From contig JANXSF010000137.1 of the NCBI GenBank assembly GCA_025352795.1, positions 1 to 64,000 on the forward strand: a stretch of 64,000 bases of DNA, read 5' to 3'. The translations under genes were made by a program, and so were the position numbers. Below are positions 30,960 to 46,012 of the stretch, piece after piece. The stretch comes from Acidobacteriota bacterium. Lineage in GTDB: Bacteria; Acidobacteriota; Terriglobia; Bryobacterales; Bryobacteraceae. Every line of letters starts with the position of its first letter. Position 1 is the first letter of the stretch. The notes under the pieces were generated by a model, which was not told the origin of the DNA, did no database searches, and saw only the letters and a program-made list of their open reading frames with translations.

Positions 30960-32900
30960 CTACTGTAACTCCTCAAGGGCAGCGGCGGCAACTTCCCATT
31001 TCTGCATGGTTGCATCGCGATCTTCAATCAGCTTCTGCACGCGCTGGGAAGCGGCCATTAACTCATCTTGAGAACTGGGGTTGGACATGGTTTGTTCGCA
31101 CGTTGCAATGTCTGTCTCCAATTGCGATACACGGTTTTCCAGCTTGGTGCAATCCTGTTGCATCTGCTTCAGCTTGATTGGATTCACTCGCTTTTTCGAG
31201 GAATCAGGGGCGGCTTGTTGTTGCTCTGCGCTTGCCAGGGACGATGACGCCGATGATGCCACAGACGACTTGAGGCCTGCCTCCATAGCTGCTACGCCGC
31301 CTTGTTTGCGGAAATGGAAGTCTTCGTAATTTCCGGGAAACACCACCACTTCACCATGATCAATTTCGTACACCTTAGTGGCCAGCTTGTCGATAAAATA
31401 GCGATCATGAGAGACCAGCACAACCGTTCCGGTGAACGATGACAGCGCTTCCAGCAACACGTCTTTGGCCCGCATGTCTAAGTGATTGGTAGGTTCATCC
31501 AACAGGATAAAATTCGACGGCTGCAACAACAGCTTGGCCAGCGCGTAGCGATTGCGTTCCCCACCGGAAAGCACGCTGATGCGCTTGAAAACGTCGTCTT
31601 CACTAAACAGGAAGCAGCCAAGCAGGGAACGAAGTTCGGTTTCCGTCTTCATGCCTGCGATGGAGCGAAGGTCGTCCAGCATCTTCGCATCGCCATTCAG
31701 TTCCTTGTACTGATCCTGCGCGAAATAATCTACGCCAACGTTGTGGCCCAGCGTGTAATCGCCTGTGGTCAACGGTTCCAGACCGGCCAGCAATTTGATC
31801 ATGGTAGATTTACCGGCCCCGTTCGGACCCACTAGCGCAATCCTTTCGCCGCGTTCAATGACAAAGCTGGCTTTGTCGAAAACGAACTTATCGCCGTAAG
31901 ATTTCCCGACGTTTTTGAACTCCGCAACTACCTTGCCACTGGGCTTGGGCTGGGGAAAGGTAAAGTGAATTGTTTTCTCATCGGGTGGAATTTCAATTCG
32001 CTCAATTTTTTCCAGCTCCTTGATCCTGCTCTGCACCTGCTTGGCTTTGGTGGCCTGTGCACGAAAGCGATTAATGAAGGCTTCCAACTGCTCAATCTTT
32101 TCTTTCTGATTCTTGTAAGCCGCTTCCAGCGTGGTCTTGCGCATCTCTTTTTCGGACAAAAACTTTTCGTAATTGCCGCTATAGAAATGCACTCCTTTGT
32201 TCCATATTTCTACGATCTTGTTTACGGTCACATCCAGAAAATACCGATCATGCGAAATAAGAACGAACGCGTAAGGGTAGTTTTTAAGATAGTCTTCCAG
32301 CCAGTTGCGGGCTTCCAAATCCAGGTGATTGGTGGGTTCGTCCAGCAGCAGCATGTTGGGTTTTTCCAACAGCAGCTTGGCCAGTGAAATTCGCATTTGC
32401 CAGCCACCGGAAAATTCTTCGGTGCGTCGCGTCCAATCTTCTTTCTTGAACCCTAGGCCCGTCAACACGGTGCCTGCCTGCGATTCCAGCGCGTAGCCAT
32501 CGTGTGCGGTGAATTCGCTTTCAATACGATGAAAGCGATCTGCCACTGCGGCATATTCCGGTGTGGACGGATCCAGTTCAGGCATGCTGTGGGTCAGCGC
32601 TTCCATCTCAACTTCCAGCGCCCGCAGCCTATCAAACACGCTCATCACTTCAGTGAAAACAGTACGGCCGGAAAGCGAAAGACCATCTTGAGGAAGGTAG
32701 CCAGTGGTGACGCCCTTGGTCTGGGTCAGGTCACCCATGTCTAAGGTATCCATTCCGCCAATCACTTTTAGCAGAGTCGATTTTCCGGTGCCGTTGCCAC
32801 CAACCAAACCGCTCCGTTCATTGGGAGTAATCAGCCAGTTCAAATTTTCGTAAAGGAGTTTGTGTCCGAAACGCTTGCCTGCATTGCTCAGTTGAATCAT
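30960..32900 (-). CDS. ABC-F family ATPase (Uup/EttA-like)
   Basis: A 646-residue soluble protein with two ABC domains in tandem: Walker A GGNGTGKST (34-42) and GPNGAGKST, signatures FSGGWQMR and LSGGERNR, and Walker B LLLDEPTNHLD and ILLDEPTNHLD. The charged linker between domains and a C-terminal coiled coil (from about 560) are typical of ABC-F proteins, which act on ribosomes. No membrane segments are present. The start ATG overlaps the stop of the aminoacylase gene (ATGA). I cannot say whether it serves translation regulation, Uup-like roles or antibiotic tolerance. Confidence 0.93.
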   Translation of the reverse strand: MIQLSNAGKRFGHKLLYENLNWLITPNERSGLVGGNGTGKSTLLKVIGGMDTLDMGDLTQTKGVTTGYLPQDGLSLSGRTVFTEVMSVFDRLRALEVEMEALTHSMPELDPSTPEYAAVADRFHRIESEFTAHDGYALESQAGTVLTGLGFKKEDWTRRTEEFSGGWQMRISLAKLLLEKPNMLLLDEPTNHLDLEARNWLEDYLKNYPYAFVLISHDRYFLDVTVNKIVEIWNKGVHFYSGNYEKFLSEKEMRKTTLEAAYKNQKEKIEQLEAFINRFRAQATKAKQVQSRIKELEKIERIEIPPDEKTIHFTFPQPKPSGKVVAEFKNVGKSYGDKFVFDKASFVIERGERIALVGPNGAGKSTMIKLLAGLEPLTTGDYTLGHNVGVDYFAQDQYKELNGDAKMLDDLRSIAGMKTETELRSLLGCFLFSEDDVFKRISVLSGGERNRYALAKLLLQPSNFILLDEPTNHLDMRAKDVLLEALSSFTGTVVLVSHDRYFIDKLATKVYEIDHGEVVVFPGNYEDFHFRKQGGVAAMEAGLKSSVASSASSSLASAEQQQAAPDSSKKRVNPIKLKQMQQDCTKLENRVSQLETDIATCEQTMSNPSSQDELMAASQRVQKLIEDRDATMQKWEVAAAALEELQ

Positions 32901-34510
32901 CGTTTCAGTGCGAGTCCCGCTTTCGCATTCGTCAGCTTTCCATCATCAATCATTAATTTTCCATTGACCACTACATAATCGAACCCTTCGCTATAGTGAT
33001 GGGGATCGGGATAAGTTGCTTTGTCCTGAACTTTTGCTGGATCGAATAGCAGTAAGTCTGCGGCCATTCCTTCGCGAATCATGCCGCGATCCTTAAACCC
33101 AAATGTGCGTGCGGGCAGGGAAGTCATGCGTCGAACGGCGTCTTCTAACGTCAGAATATTTCGTTGTCGAACGTATTCGGCAAGCACGCGGGCGTTGGTG
33201 CCATAAGACCGCGGATGCGGCACCCCGACGCCAAATTCACGAACGCCGCCGTCACTGGCAACGGCTGTGAAAGGGTACTTCATAATACGATCTACATCTT
33301 CATCGCCCATGGAGTGGTAAACCATCTGAGCTCCACCACGTCGCATAATTTCAAGGATGGTTTCAACCTGGTTATCGACGGTTGGTTCAGTGCCACGAAG
33401 CTTGGTGATTTCAACTATGTTTTTGCCATCCCAAGCATGATCGCTACTAAAATTGGCTACCGTGGCGTAGGTGTAATCGTCAAAGCCTTTGTTCTTCAAA
33501 TGGACTTTCATTTCGCCGACAATTTTCGCTTTGCTTTCCGGAGCGTCTAAGCGTTCCTTCAAACTTTTGGTGCCACCTGCTAACGCCCAACTGGGAAGTG
33601 TGATGCCCAGGTTGGTGCTGGAATGATCGTAAGGATATTGATCAATAACTACGTCCACACCTTCGCGACGATATTTTTCGACCAAAGCCAGCGACTTTGT
33701 ACTGGCACCCCACAGGTTTCGATTGTCGATCTTAAAGTGCGATAGTTCCACGCGAAGTCCGCTCTGTTTGCCAACCAGCACTGCTTCGTTGATGGCATCT
33801 TCAATCTTTTCGCCTTCATCGCGCATGTGACTGGCGTATACCCCACCATACTTTGAAGCAGCTTTGGCTAGAGCGACAACTTCCGCAGTGTTGGAATAGG
33901 TACCAGGAATATAGATGAGTCCGGTGGAAAAGCCAACGGCACCTTCTTCCATAGCACGGGCTACCAACGCTTGCATTTTCAGGATTTCGTCGGCAGTAGC
34001 CAGCCGATTTTCACTGCCCATTACTTCAGCTCGAACGGAGTTGTGCCCAATCAAAGTGGCCACGTTGATACCCAAGCCAATGGTCTGAATTTTCTTGAGC
34101 CAATCCCCGACCTTGACGTTGGACCCGCCGCAGTTGCCGGTGACGACAGTGGTCACGCCATCGGTAAGGTAGTTATCGGCACGGGGAACTTTTTCCACGG
34201 CACCTTCAATGTGCGTATGAACATCAATGAATCCAGGGGCCAGGATTCGTTCCTGGGCATCAATCGTGCGAACTGCAGTTGCTGTTTTCAGATTTCCAAT
34301 GGCGGCAATCTTTCCGGCTTTTACAGCGACGTCGGCACGAAACCAGGGATTACCGGTGCCATCGACAACGCGGGCGCTGCGCAGAATCAGATCGTAGTCA
34401 GCGGGGAATGCCAGTGCAGCGAAGGCAAAGAACAGGGCCAGGGGGAAGTTTAGTTTTTTCGGAAACTGAAATGAAGACTTCGCTTGCAGGCAAAACTGCC
34501 TGGCCCACAT
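32897..34510 (-). CDS. exported D-aminoacylase-like amidohydrolase
   Basis: A 537-residue zinc amidohydrolase of the N-acyl-D-amino-acid deacylase group. DVHTHIEG gives the first metal His pair; YASHMRDEG, SHFKI and the C-terminal GMIREGMAADLLLFDP match the family. Residues about 15-35 (FPLALFFAFAALAFPADYD) form a signal peptide. The start is uncertain: ATG 34510 is the last ATG before the signal peptide but lies inside a 24-base tandem repeat, and the frame stays open through repeats to 34753. The stop overlaps the ABC-F start. Family members hydrolyse N-acyl-D-amino acids or cyclic imides; this substrate is unknown. Confidence 0.85.
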   Translation of the reverse strand: MWARQFCLQAKSSFQFPKKLNFPLALFFAFAALAFPADYDLILRSARVVDGTGNPWFRADVAVKAGKIAAIGNLKTATAVRTIDAQERILAPGFIDVHTHIEGAVEKVPRADNYLTDGVTTVVTGNCGGSNVKVGDWLKKIQTIGLGINVATLIGHNSVRAEVMGSENRLATADEILKMQALVARAMEEGAVGFSTGLIYIPGTYSNTAEVVALAKAASKYGGVYASHMRDEGEKIEDAINEAVLVGKQSGLRVELSHFKIDNRNLWGASTKSLALVEKYRREGVDVVIDQYPYDHSSTNLGITLPSWALAGGTKSLKERLDAPESKAKIVGEMKVHLKNKGFDDYTYATVANFSSDHAWDGKNIVEITKLRGTEPTVDNQVETILEIMRRGGAQMVYHSMGDEDVDRIMKYPFTAVASDGGVREFGVGVPHPRSYGTNARVLAEYVRQRNILTLEDAVRRMTSLPARTFGFKDRGMIREGMAADLLLFDPAKVQDKATYPDPHHYSEGFDYVVVNGKLMIDDGKLTNAKAGLALKR

Positions 34511-34534
34511 CAGGCAAAACTGCCTGGCCCACAT
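34487..34534. repeat. 24-bp perfect tandem repeat x2
   Basis: Two identical 24-base copies at 34487-34510 and 34511-34534. Each contains the palindrome CAGGCAAAACTGCCTG followed by GCCCACAT. They overlap the apparent start of the aminoacylase gene and encode two identical octapeptides (MWARQFCL) in its frame. Confidence 0.95.
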
Positions 34535-34571
34535 GTAGATGGCCTGGTGACAGATGCCTTTCACTGAACTG

Positions 34572-34650
34572 TAGAATCTCCCAACCTTTGTTGAGGTAAC
34601 CTGTGGGCAAAAGACCGCTTCCTTGCGGTCACGGTTCGGTAACATACTGA
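34572..34650 (+). repeat. palindromic dispersed repeat, copy 2 (extended form)
   Basis: The 38-base core is at 34613-34650 (GACCGCTTCCTTGCGGTC, then ACGGTTCGGTAACATACTGA). Homology with the 46529 copy extends about 40 bases upstream (TAGAATC, TTTGTTG, TAACCTGTG and AAAGACCGC shared), showing the full unit is about 80 bases. It sits in the gap between accD and the aminoacylase. Confidence 0.9.
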
Positions 34651-34653
34651 TCC

Positions 34654-34681
34654 TACCGAGCCGTGACCGCGAGGGAGCGGT
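34654..34681 (-). repeat. palindromic dispersed repeat, copy 3 (inverted)
   Basis: Twenty-eight bases matching the core in reverse orientation (ACCGCTCCCTCGCGGT then CACGGCTCGGTA when read on the minus strand). With copy 2, four bases away, it forms a large inverted repeat that could fold into a long hairpin; a T-run (34681-34685) follows on the plus strand. Confidence 0.88.
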
Positions 34682-34749
34682 TTTTCGATGGCCTGATACG
34701 CTTCGCACCAAAAAGCTCCACATGTTGATGCCCTGGTGCCCGATGCCTT

Positions 34750-35613
34750 TCACTGAACTGGTCCAAGGAAGAAATCGAACGATTTGGAAAAGTAGTCCTT
34801 CATATCTTGCCGCTTCACTACTGCATCCAGAAATCCATGTGTCAACAAAAATTCGCTCCGTTGGAAGCCGGGCGGCAGTTTCTGGCGAATGGTTTGTTCA
34901 ATGACGCGAGGTCCGGCAAAGCCGATTAATGCTCCTGGTTCGGCAATGTTCAAATCGCCTAACATGGCGAAACTGGCGGTAACGCCGCCGGTGGTTGGGT
35001 CGGTTAGAACGCTGATGTAAGGGATGGCCGCTTCATCTAACTTCATTAATGCCGATGAAATTTTCGCCATCTGCATTAGGCTGATGGCACCTTCCTGCAT
35101 GCGCGCTCCACCTGATGCGGAAATCACTACCAGCGGTGAACGATCCACCAAACAGCGTTCAATGGCACGGGTGATTTTTTCACCAACAACGGAACCCATA
35201 CTGCCGCCAACGAAGCGCAGGTCCATGGCGCATACCTGAGTCTTTCGTCCATGGATAAGGCCAGAGGCGGCGATTAAAGCGTCATTGCGCGACGTTAACT
35301 TGCGCATGCCCGCCAGGCGTTCCTTGTAGGGTTTGGAATCTGTGAAGTGCAATGGATCGGTAGAGGTGAGCGACTTATCGTGCTCATCCCATTTTGCATC
35401 GTCGAAGATTAAATCGAGCCGTTCGGGAGCGTCGATTCTGAAATGGAAGCCACACTTGACGCAGGTATTCAGGCTCTTATCCAGATCTTTCTTCCAGATA
35501 ATTTCCGAGCAGGAATCACACTTCAGCCACAGGCCTTCTGTTTTGACTGTTTTTTCTTTATCGTCGGCAGTCGGCGCCGACAAAGAGGGATCTTTCCGTT
35601 TCCACCAGGACAT
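34750..35613 (-). CDS. accD: acetyl-CoA carboxylase carboxyltransferase subunit beta
   Basis: A 287-residue protein of normal length. The N-terminal zinc ribbon has C32-x2-C35 and C51-x2-C54 (CDSC, CVKC). The carboxyltransferase core shows SASGGARMQEGA, LTDPTTGGVTASFAMLGD and GFAGPRVIEQT. With AccA it transfers carboxyl from biotin to acetyl-CoA, the first committed step of fatty-acid synthesis. No accA, accB or accC is in the window. It follows lysA by 57 bases in the same direction, and its last codons lie within a 40-base direct repeat. Confidence 0.96.
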   Translation of the reverse strand: MSWWKRKDPSLSAPTADDKEKTVKTEGLWLKCDSCSEIIWKKDLDKSLNTCVKCGFHFRIDAPERLDLIFDDAKWDEHDKSLTSTDPLHFTDSKPYKERLAGMRKLTSRNDALIAASGLIHGRKTQVCAMDLRFVGGSMGSVVGEKITRAIERCLVDRSPLVVISASGGARMQEGAISLMQMAKISSALMKLDEAAIPYISVLTDPTTGGVTASFAMLGDLNIAEPGALIGFAGPRVIEQTIRQKLPPGFQRSEFLLTHGFLDAVVKRQDMKDYFSKSFDFFLGPVQ

Positions 35614-38660: not shown

Positions 38661-39578
38661 TTAGTAGCCGTCCTGCTTGGCTGCGTTTGCGATGGTACCA
38701 CCACCGGCAGCTTCCATGATTTTGACGCTGGCGCTGGCCCCAATCCGCGATGCCCCAGCGGCTTCCATGATCTTCACATCTTCCAGACTGCGAATGCCGC
38801 CCGATGCTTTAACGCCCATACCAGGGCCCACAATACTACGCATCAGGGCAATGTCGGCAGCAGTCGCGCCACTTTTGGCGAAGCCTGTGGAAGTCTTCAC
38901 AAAATCGGCACCTGCTAACTTGGCGAGTGTGCAGGCCATGGCTTTTTGTTGATCGTCTAAAAGGGCGGTTTCAATGATAACTTTCAATATGGCACCACCA
39001 CGATGGGCGGCTTGCGCTACACAACGAATATCGCGTTCCACAAATTCGTAATCACCCGATTTCAAGGCACCGACGTTGATCACCATATCCACTTCTTCGG
39101 CGCCGCACAGAACAGCGTTTTCAGTTTCAGTCACTTTGATATCGGTAGTATTGGCACCTAGCGGGAATCCGATTACGGTGCAAACCTTGACAGGCGAGCC
39201 TTTCAACAGCTTGGCCACAAAGGGAACCCAGAACGGGTTAATGCAAACACTGGCAAAGCTGTACTTTCTGGCTTCGGTACAAACCTTGCTGACTTCATCG
39301 GCAGTGGCGTCGGGCTTCAAGATCGTGTGATCAATGAGCGATGCGATTTCCGGGGCAATGCGGGTCAGTTTTTCACTGGCGGAAATACGGTCGGCACCGC
39401 AGGCAATAATCTTTTTGGTCTTGGCTTCGCAGGTTTGGGCACAACGTTGGGTGCAGCCCGGACAGACCGTATTGGCAATGCCCAGCCCTTCTGCCCCAGC
39501 AAGCTTTTTTGCGCTTAGTCTGGCCAAAATTTCTTCGCCGATTTGAGATACCAGTTGATCCAGTTCCGCCGGGTTCAT
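38661..39578 (-). CDS. deoC: deoxyribose-phosphate aldolase with N-terminal targeting-like helix and Cys cluster
   Basis: A 305-residue class I aldolase. Catalytic residues fit DERA: Schiff-base K228 (FVKTSTGF), K257 (GVKASGGIR) and D164 ([10 protein letters not shown]). About 75 residues precede the core at LIDHTILKP. They begin with an amphipathic helix ([20 protein letters not shown]) like bacterial-microcompartment encapsulation peptides, followed by a cysteine cluster C39-x2-C42-x3-C46-x3-C50 and C60. I chose ATG 39578, seven bases after the rpiB-like stop. The C-terminus repeats VKIMEAAG twice (268-275 and 285-292). It cleaves deoxyribose-5-phosphate to acetaldehyde and glyceraldehyde-3-phosphate; the aldehyde product would suit compartmentation. 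Confidence 0.88.
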
Positions 39579-39585
39579 TATCAAT

Positions 39586-40197
39586 TCACTTTGTATGTTT
39601 TTGTTCAATGGCAGTAATTTTATCGACTCTTGCCTGGTGCCGTCCGCCTGCGAAAGGGGTGGTAATCCAAGTTCGCAACACCTCTTCGCACTGCGTCGCA
39701 GTAAGCAACCTTCCGCCCAAAGTTAAAACGTTGGCGTTGTTGTGTTCCTTGGCATTGCGGGCTGAGGCTTTATCCCAACACAGGGATGCACGAACTCCTG
39801 GAACCTTGTTGGCGGCCATGGAAGACCCGATTCCTGCTCCATCAATGACCACGCCCATACAGACTAATCCCTGAGCCACCATGTCGGCCACTTTTTCGGC
39901 GATATCGGGATAGTCAACGGACTTTTCTTCATAAACACCCACGTCACGAGCAGTAAATCCTAACTCTTCAAGGATCGGCTTCAACCGTTCTTTCACCTCA
40001 AAGCCACCGTGATCGCTACCGATTCCTACTGTCTTATTTGCGGGTACAACACCATTTAATTCGTGTGCTTGCACTTCAAGAATTGCCACGCCGCGTTCGG
40101 AAGCTAAATCCCGTGCGGAAGGCGTCACAATGGTGCCCACCGGGACACGCAGCGGACCACTGGCAGGAACGTCGATAGTTGTAATCACTCGTCGCAT
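39586..40197 (-). CDS. RpiB/LacAB-family sugar-phosphate isomerase with 55-residue N-terminal extension
   Basis: A 203-residue protein. The RpiB core begins near residue 56 ([14 protein letters not shown]) and keeps [28 protein letters not shown] and GGRHQARV. At the position of the E. coli catalytic Cys (ICGTGVG) it has D119 (VIDGAGIG), so its chemistry may differ. The first 55 residues, including [16 protein letters not shown], are absent from ordinary RpiB proteins of about 150 residues and may be a targeting or interaction module. It heads the run with deoC, which follows after seven bases. Ribose-5-phosphate isomerase activity is possible but not assured. Confidence 0.82.
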
Positions 40198-45332: not shown

Positions 45333-45372
45333 CGATTTTCAGGCAGATTTTAGGTCTGTTTGCAGAAAATCG
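45333..45372. terminator. possible bidirectional terminator
   Basis: Inverted arms CGATTTTC (45333-45340) and GAAAATCG (45365-45372) flank 24 bases at the junction of converging genes ending at 45331 and 45339. The long loop makes this weak, and most of it overlaps the vapC 3' end. Confidence 0.3.
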
Positions 45373-45740
45373 TTTCCCACAAAAAGTAAAGGTAATCCTG
45401 CCGCTTTGGTAATGGCATACGTAAAGCAGTCGCCCATATTGAGCGCTGCTGGATGACGACCCTTCCCATATCGTGTGAAGGCGTGGCTAAACCAAGTGAG
45501 ATGCTTGACGGCGAACGGGATGAGTTCTATTTCAAATTCCTGGTAGAATTCCAGCAAGATTGCGGTAGGATCGCGGCCCAACTTTGAGTTCAAGACAATG
45601 AGGGTTTCCGCTGCGCATGGCGTGGGGACAATGCGCAGTTGGGCGGCCAGCAATTTACCTACAAGGTACTCTGCCGTAACTTCCCGCGTAATGATGGCAA
45701 CAATAGCGGAAGTGTCGACCACCATCCCGATTCCCGCCAT
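45339..45740 (-). CDS. vapC: VapC-type PIN-domain toxin
   Basis: A 133-residue PIN-domain protein. Acidic active-site residues appear in MVVDTSAIVAI (Asp), in AAETLIVLNSKLG (Glu) and in ALNMGDCFTYA (Asp), the usual VapC pattern for a Mg-dependent RNase. The start ATG overlaps the antitoxin stop by one base (TAATG), so antitoxin and toxin are translationally coupled. An internal Met at residue 6 is an alternative start. Confidence 0.9.
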   Translation of the reverse strand: MAGIGMVVDTSAIVAIITREVTAEYLVGKLLAAQLRIVPTPCAAETLIVLNSKLGRDPTAILLEFYQEFEIELIPFAVKHLTWFSHAFTRYGKGRHPAALNMGDCFTYAITKAAGLPLLFVGNDFLQTDLKSA

Positions 45741-46012
45741 TAGACTGGTGCCCCATCAGGACCGTAGCCAAGGATTTCGTCCTCTTCTGCGCGACTGAGC
45801 GTACGGCTGGCGTTTGGAGGAAGAGTGGGCCACAGCCGATCATGCAGGAATTGTAGAGCGCTGGTTTGGGAATCGCGCGCAAAACCAAGGATCATCCGCT
45901 GCCTCTTTTCAAGAAGAGCCTGCCGGATGACTTCGGTTTTAGAAGAACCAGCCAGAAGTGCCACTTCGGAAGCCAGACTTTCGACTTCGGGGTTTTTGAG
46001 GTTGAGTGCCAT
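45740..46012 (-). CDS. VapB-like antitoxin (Rv0623/PSK type)
   Basis: A 90-residue protein. The N-terminus MALNLKNPEVESLASEVAL and the GSSKTEVIRQALLEK helix match the Rv0623/PSK antitoxin family, a ribbon-helix-helix-like DNA-binding domain. The C-terminal part should wrap and inhibit the PIN toxin encoded directly downstream. It probably autorepresses the pair. Confidence 0.88.
   Translation of the reverse strand: MALNLKNPEVESLASEVALLAGSSKTEVIRQALLEKRQRMILGFARDSQTSALQFLHDRLWPTLPPNASRTLSRAEEDEILGYGPDGAPV

Follow-up and report, generated by a model that had tools for sequence, protein, structure and literature searches.

The closest described systems are bacterial microcompartments (BMCs) of the SPU (sugar phosphate utilization) type, for which the cited sections of Axen 2014 (PMC4207490) and Sutter 2021 (PMC8217296) give an RpiB (pfam02502) and a DeoC (pfam01791) as signature enzymes and report RpiB-DeoC fusions in Marinimicrobia. 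The same sections describe the ACI type, a PVM-like BMC of Acidobacteria that occurs mainly in Subdivisions 4 and 6, whose AldDH lies consistently on a satellite locus and which is listed among the types with no obvious aldehyde-making signature enzyme (PMC4207490; PMC8217296). As to the chemistry of RpiB itself, the portions of PMC4783025 and PMC3755991 used here assign the removal of the C2 proton to a Cys, proton transfer between O2 and O1 to a Thr, ring opening to His residues and phosphate binding to Arg residues.

The locus analysed here lies in a window of 64,000 nucleotides (positions 1 to 64,000 of contig JANXSF010000137.1, assembly GCA_025352795.1, an Acidobacteriota bacterium of the Bryobacteraceae) and consists of an rpiB-like gene and a deoC gene that match pfam02502 and pfam01791, respectively, like the signature enzymes of the SPU type. 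The pair is, with good probability, a detached two-gene SPU-type BMC cargo cassette in its acidobacterial form. The sequences show orthology, an active-site Asp throughout the clade and an Ala nearly throughout it, a deoC that is adjacent or fused, shell genes that occur in the same genomes and a shared N-terminal module; we infer the encapsulation, the substrate and the chemistry of the RpiB-DeoC pair. The features of the locus are the following:

39586..40197, minus strand: rpiB-like gene, 203 aa, ATG start, stop codon within the coordinates.
40063..40197, minus strand: N-terminal module of RpiB, residues 1-45, with an ITxxD...G. motif, putatively shell-docking (HMM of 77 rows; NCBIfam).
39616..40029, minus strand: RpiB/LacAB domain, residues 57-194 (Pfam LacAB_rpiB; Foldseek).
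39841..39843, minus strand: codon of Asp119, the catalytic Cys position of RpiB (Asp in 95/95 distinct sequences).
39835..39837, minus strand: codon of Ala121, the Thr/Ser proton-shuttle position of RpiB (Ala in 91/95 distinct sequences).
38661..39578, minus strand: deoC, BMC-type deoxyribose-phosphate aldolase (TIGR00126; the longest ORF starts at TTG 39608).
39507..39578, minus strand: N-terminal helix of DeoC resembling an encapsulation peptide (a similar helix occurs in SPU DeoCs).
39399..39464, minus strand: Cys cluster of DeoC, ...C, between the helix and the aldolase domain (recurs in DeoC rows).

Residues 57-194 of the rpiB-like product match Pfam LacAB_rpiB (6.2e-51), the TIGR01120 rpiB model is passed narrowly (139.1 bits against a cut-off of 138.65), and full-length orthologues are present in relatives. 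Foldseek aligns the predicted model to 3he8 with a TM of 0.97 by target length and an rmsd of 0.9, the fold being practically identical to that of C. thermocellum RpiB. With the canonical RpiBs of E. coli, C. thermocellum, T. cruzi and L. donovani, the window protein has in common the fold, the ring-opening His, the phosphate-binding Arg, and the DHGG and DYP stretches; it differs from them by the replacement of Cys by Asp (residue 119) and of Thr/Ser by Ala (residue 121), by a Ser fixed at 125 and by its N-terminal module. Neither the RpiB-type catalytic Cys nor the Thr/Ser two residues on is thus present, and the ring-opening His, the Asn and the phosphate-binding Arg-His-Arg are all retained. 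The initial annotation had placed an Asp at the catalytic Cys position, and the alignment of E. coli RpiB bears this out, D119 facing the C of LICGTGVG, just as it confirms the Cys of the CGTG motif in the E. coli enzyme; the Glu ascribed to actinobacterial RpiB agrees with the Glu75 used by the M. tuberculosis enzyme, as stated in the sections cited of PMC4783025 and PMC3755991. None of the well-characterised RpiBs aligned at this position has the same residue, E. coli and the five PDB matches read there all showing Cys.

The orthologues read share the first substitution in every case and the second in nearly every case. All 95 distinct sequences, the window's included, have Asp at position 119, and position 121 is Ala in 91, Val in three and Thr in one. 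These 95 distinct core sequences represent 103 rows (seven sequences being duplicated besides the query). A scan of species genomes, whose patterns lay beside the Asp and not on it, contributed 81 rows, the query and the best 80 of a larger number of matching loci, which were taken by similarity and are not an unbiased survey (Asp in 80/80, or 81/81 with the query). The other 22 rows are the long RpiBs with the module carried by 22 of 61 genomes (the window's and 60 relatives), again with Asp in 22/22, an RpiB fragment of G012 (residues 1-86, at a contig end) having been left out. The short RpiB paralogues that were read have Cys in 26 of 26 cases. Twenty further loci fetched from the same phylum comprise 19 with Asp and one with Cys, the shuttle position of the 19 being Ala in 17, Ser in L155 and Leu in L153; a Thr or Ser at this position is therefore found in two of 114 Asp-type sequences (95 + 19), L101 and L155. 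No variation is seen across the 81 + 22 rows at D62, H63, Y96, P97, H152, N153, R186, H187 or R190, and D95 is conserved in every row but one. Since the papers assign the roles and the other residues do not vary, the changes are, as far as alignment can tell, limited to the two isomerisation residues among the active-site residues checked. A chance substitution of the Cys was ruled out, the Asp being clade-wide. The residue oddity singled out at first is thus real; it is not peculiar to the window protein, as it is fixed in the clade sequences examined and LacA has an Asp there too.

A 68-row tree, in which the query and 32 of the best 80 loci represent the Asp group, sets this group apart by a branch that is only modestly supported (93/26), and LacA is its nearest outside branch, on a long stem; alignment A2 comprises the window and 60 of the best 80 loci. 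The two LacA sequences compared (E. faecalis and Lactococcus) have, like the window RpiB, an Asp at the Cys position; they differ from it in having a Tyr at the Thr position and LacB as partner, whereas the window protein has Ala121 and deoC as its neighbour. A LacA/LacB-type heteromer was rejected, as there is no LacB beside the gene and the LacA model TIGR01118 scores 74.7 bits, far below its cut-off of 181.1. A phage gene was likewise discarded, one scan of viral contigs having returned no relative.

The enzyme is probably not an ordinary ribose-5-phosphate isomerase. The single most likely chemistry, put forward tentatively, is that RpiB opens the ring of deoxyribose-5-phosphate and supplies the open aldehyde to DeoC. 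As 2-deoxyribose-5-phosphate (dR5P) has no O2, the Cys and Thr that serve proton transfer at C2 could have become Asp and Ala, and the retained His, Asn and Arg would open the furanose and pass the open aldehyde to DeoC, whether adjacent or fused. A protein in which the His and Arg are kept, the C2/O2 residues are lost and DeoC is coupled or fused would suit this role. In the published excerpts used here, dR5P is 99.8% furanose in solution, the chemistry of DeoC requires the open aldehyde, and no residue of DERA corresponds to the His with which phosphoglucose isomerase opens the ring; against a ring-opening role, the same excerpts expect DERA to open the ring itself and state that phosphorylation speeds ring opening. 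A precedent is the anomerase YhcH, which opens its substrate for a Schiff-base aldolase and whose authors, in the sections cited, anticipated more such cases (PMC8141875). YhcH is a DUF386 metalloprotein acting on sialic acid with no BMC involved (PMC8141875), and the window protein belongs to another family.

Ranked directly after ring opening, and conceivable rather than probable, is an Asp-based aldose-ketose isomerase, in which Asp119 would act on C2/C1 as the base in place of the thiolate of Cys. The remaining active-site residues checked are conserved, the fold is that of C. thermocellum RpiB and L101 and L155 retain a Thr or Ser at the shuttle, all of which speak for isomerisation; the loss of the O2/O1 Thr/Ser in 94 of the 95 distinct and 18 of the 19 further sequences speaks against it. 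The product, Ru5P, is not known to be a DeoC substrate, which also tells against isomerisation. The literature, in the parts cited, bears on both sides: Sutter et al. (PMC8217296) describe this type of RpiB as isomerising R5P, and a carboxylate base is known, at another position, from Glu75 of M. tuberculosis RpiB, but T67A cost LacB about 20-fold, and neither LacB with C65A nor L. donovani RpiB with C69S was active (PMC4783025; PMC3755991). The site could also be dead, like the Asp half-site of LacA, leaving a catalytically silent scaffold that docks DeoC to the shell. The Asp at the same position in LacA, the nearest (if long) outside branch, and the RpiB-DeoC fusions would accord with such a scaffold; it is nevertheless unlikely, given that none of the 81 + 22 rows departs from H152, N153, R186, H187 and R190 and that in LacAB, where one of two possible sites is active and the other is reported vacant, the silent site is described in the cited section as made of wholly different residues (PMC3755991). 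With Cys lost clade-wide, Thr/Ser lost almost completely, the residues for ring opening and phosphate binding kept and DeoC fused repeatedly, the question is testable by one enzyme assay; if ring opening is true, the protein would be an RpiB-fold anomerase (“openase”), and this would explain what RpiB does in SPU organelles.

The adjoining deoC is confirmed: its product scores 268.5 bits with TIGR00126 (cut-off 117.3), and its catalytic Asp, Lys and Lys are all in place. The rpiB stop codon occupies 39586-39588 and the deoC ATG 39576-39578, leaving a gap of seven nucleotides if ATG 39578 is the start; this start is more likely than TTG 39608 because the ORF of the nearest relative begins with MNPSELDQ. 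Between the N-terminal helix and the aldolase domain, the Cys cluster recurs in BMC-type DeoCs from Chloroflexi to Acidobacteria, with variation and some losses, and is a possible candidate metal or Fe-S site. Another DeoC, of the ordinary kind, and another RpiB, of the Cys type, are encoded in the window's own genome, and the rpiB-deoC pair is therefore extra. The initial annotation had suggested that the gene, paired with a modified deoC, may belong to a dedicated deoxyribose or sugar-phosphate pathway, a proposal that was right in outline and missed the BMC setting, that is, the SPU-type loci and the shell genes.

This setting emerges from the orthologues. Among the best 80 loci, Asp-type rpiB is accompanied by BMC shell ORFs in 19, belonging to Chloroflexi, Gemmatimonadetes and Bacteroidetes, with deoC in 19/19 and AldDH in 13/19. 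By their domain content, these shell-linked loci are of the SPU type, an assignment made because they share pfam02502 and pfam01791 with that type as given in the cited sections of PMC8217296 and PMC4207490. The SPU loci examined have the same type of N-terminal module and the same DeoC extension as the window pair; their enzymes lie within the shell locus, whereas the window pair is detached from any shell gene. Three of the best 80 loci (L068, L090, L096) also look like RpiB-DeoC fusions, and of the 20 loci fetched from the same phylum, 11 have shell ORFs and eight are RpiB-DeoC fusions. Other families of the window's phylum, too, have this RpiB inside SPU-type loci. Across 396 genomes of the phylum, a shell domain is found in 89 of 90 Asp-scored genomes (at least 210 bits with the Asp profile, a line chosen after the scores had been seen) against 84 of 306 others; a Fisher p for this co-occurrence overstates the evidence and is not a true probability, the genomes being related. 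At or above that line, 19 of the 90 genomes were read (17 of the 20 fetched loci together with G000 and G058), all with Asp, the score being the sole basis for the other 71; of the three fetched loci that fall short of the line, two, at 205 bits, have Asp and L167, at 207 bits, has Cys. The one Asp-scored genome with no shell domain, G139, is 82% complete. The sections consulted of Axen 2014 (PMC4207490) and Sutter 2021 (PMC8217296) do not mention the Asp/Ala active site, and the words “active site” and “cysteine” are absent from the main text of the latter (PMC8217296).

In the window's genome the rpiB-deoC pair stands alone: shell-domain matches fall on contigs C7 and C95 and none on the window's own contig, C134, and no shell ORF was seen in the acidobacterial loci among the best 80 (flanks of at most 10 kb, on contigs that are often short). 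This isolation would be expected of plain cytosolic deoxyribose or ribose salvage, in which the BMC-type extensions are kept by descent and the pair enters no compartment, as would the lack, by eye, of the leading helix of SPU RpiBs in the window RpiB. Such salvage is an improbable explanation in view of the shell co-occurrence (89/90) and of the DeoCs of 10 BMC-free relatives, none of which has the extension. The window's genome and its 60 relatives (n=61) comprise 51 genomes with a BMC and 10 without; 20 of the former and none of the latter have an extended DeoC, defined by a match that begins no later than residue 21. Counting against BMC cargo, besides the isolation of the pair, three genomes (G025, G039, G054) have an extended DeoC and no Asp-type RpiB, and a crude hydrophobic-moment test of the helices was not significant. 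As a detached cassette, the pair would serve a BMC for which other parts of the genome encode the shell and an acylating-type AldDH; DeoC would be recruited by its N-terminal helix and RpiB by its N-terminal module, a relative of the H1/H2 region with which EutQ binds the shell, and the BMC dehydrogenase would convert acetaldehyde into acetyl-CoA.

The extension of about 55 residues that had been regarded as atypical is real, and it is not private to the window protein: it is a recurrent BMC module. AlphaFold2 predicts residues 1-40 with a pLDDT of 86-95 by blocks of ten (83-91 is also given for these residues), as a strand, a helix (26-35) and a strand, followed by a weak linker (residues 49-51 below 50). 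No solved fold matched the isolated module in Foldseek (best E 0.8), and as a single-sequence query against the window's genome the 55-residue module retrieved nothing but itself. An HMM was made from 77 RpiB N-termini, four of the 81 rows (L118, L120, L131, L136) having been left out for lack of the module. Against 23 proteins of the E. coli eut region (full-sequence E values scaled to 4,300 proteins), this HMM matches the N-termini of EutQ at 1.8e-5 and of EutT at 1.2e-4, the next protein at 58. When 32 members (A3) were compared singly with 18,950 NCBIfam models, EutQ was touched by 15, TIGR02536 by 14, PduM by 10 and EutT by five, all of these matches being weak (best E 9.4e-5; the window module itself touches EutQ alone, at 0.13). 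In Pfam, the 32 members most often touch the E3-binding domain (13, ahead of PDU_like with eight; best E 1e-4), which is no BMC family and counts against BMC cargo. An E3-binding module of lipoyl complexes was rejected, the window module scoring 18.3 bits against a cut-off of 23.7, with weak PDB profile matches (best E 0.012).

The module also forms the tail of BMC AldDHs, in 26 of 30 loci (the window's genome included) by reading and in 25 of 30 within the HMMER inclusion threshold, with a profile-profile probability of 95; in the window's genome, this tail was first noticed by eye and is weak alone (iE 0.016), and it is stronger in relatives. In Salmonella, the H1/H2 region of EutQ (residues 9-41) binds the shell and is required for cargo encapsulation, according to the sections cited of PMC12487888. 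The window module is profile-similar to this region, which is followed in EutQ by the H3/H4 helices and a cupin and in the window protein by the RpiB domain. Because the module resembles the region of EutQ that binds the shell, we infer by analogy that it may dock RpiB and AldDH to the shell. Common to RpiB, AldDH, EutQ, EutT and PduM, it offers a handle for further hidden cargo, and cargo cassettes with no shell genes are missed by surveys in which the shell genes are what marks a satellite.

A class II aldolase (PF00596) in an SPU locus of Ardenticatenales (L138:17692-18516, plus strand) is also matched by the module HMM at its N-terminus (4.8e-16) and carries the same module as the local RpiB. 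Another SPU-locus protein of about 138 aa (L136:15001-15414, plus strand) gives a weak module match (iE 0.26; TIGR02536 at 0.091). In G002, a 66-residue ORF consisting of the RpiB module alone (L055:6750-6950, minus strand) lies about 0.7 kb upstream of rpiB and looks like a broken duplicate.

The BMC genes elsewhere in the window's genome resemble, in their layout, the ACI type. Contig C7 carries one BMC-H, three BMC-P and a tailed ORF that looks by eye like a class II aldolase and whose homologue in L138 is PF00596, and on contig C95 a BMC-H adjoins a 603-residue AldDH; the genome thus likewise has a class II aldolase-like ORF, a BMC-P triplet, a BMC-H and a separate contig with AldDH and BMC-H. 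The C95 AldDH comes closest to TIGR02518, an acetylating acetaldehyde dehydrogenase, with 551 bits where the cut-off is 620, and such a TIGR02518-like enzyme would suit acetaldehyde released by DeoC; PduL was sought in the same genome and was not found, which counts against BMC cargo. Among 18 relatives of family f3, the shell domain is present in 18/18, a homologous AldDH in 17/18 and an Asp-type RpiB in 0/18. The family-f3 BMC does without an Asp-type RpiB, so to that BMC the rpiB-deoC pair can be no more than an accessory. For the acidobacterial BMCs listed as having no obvious aldehyde source, the detached pair is a candidate one.

In 19 genomes of the window's family, 19 AldDH genes (L200-L218; for example L200 = G002:C162:45800-48100) have the module behind an in-frame TGA. 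The stop reads TGA CTG in 19/19 and is preceded by G-[Y/F]-[G/S/T] in 18/19; CTG also accounts for 29 of the 57 other Leu codons in the module behind the TGA. Over the 30 codons of this module, the first position varies in 12, the second in 13 and the third in all 30, and pairwise codon differences amount to 1894 synonymous against 990 other. A TGA falls inside the AldDH match in 18 of 137 genomes with AldDH (G455 also has a TAA, and G644 was added by reading), and the comparison AldDH L219 of G003 has none. These genes are candidates for programmed UGA readthrough, or reinitiation, that would add a docking module to part of the AldDH; no paper joining stop-codon readthrough with BMCs was found in the open-access PMC literature.

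Elsewhere in the window, two overlapping small ORFs at 45339-46012 have by eye a VapBC-type look, with a PIN-like protein and a short antitoxin-like protein. Similar APSRSRLG stretches are seen by eye at 34530-34753, the start of ORF 32897-34753, and at L006:11615-11890, which suggests a dispersed repeat.
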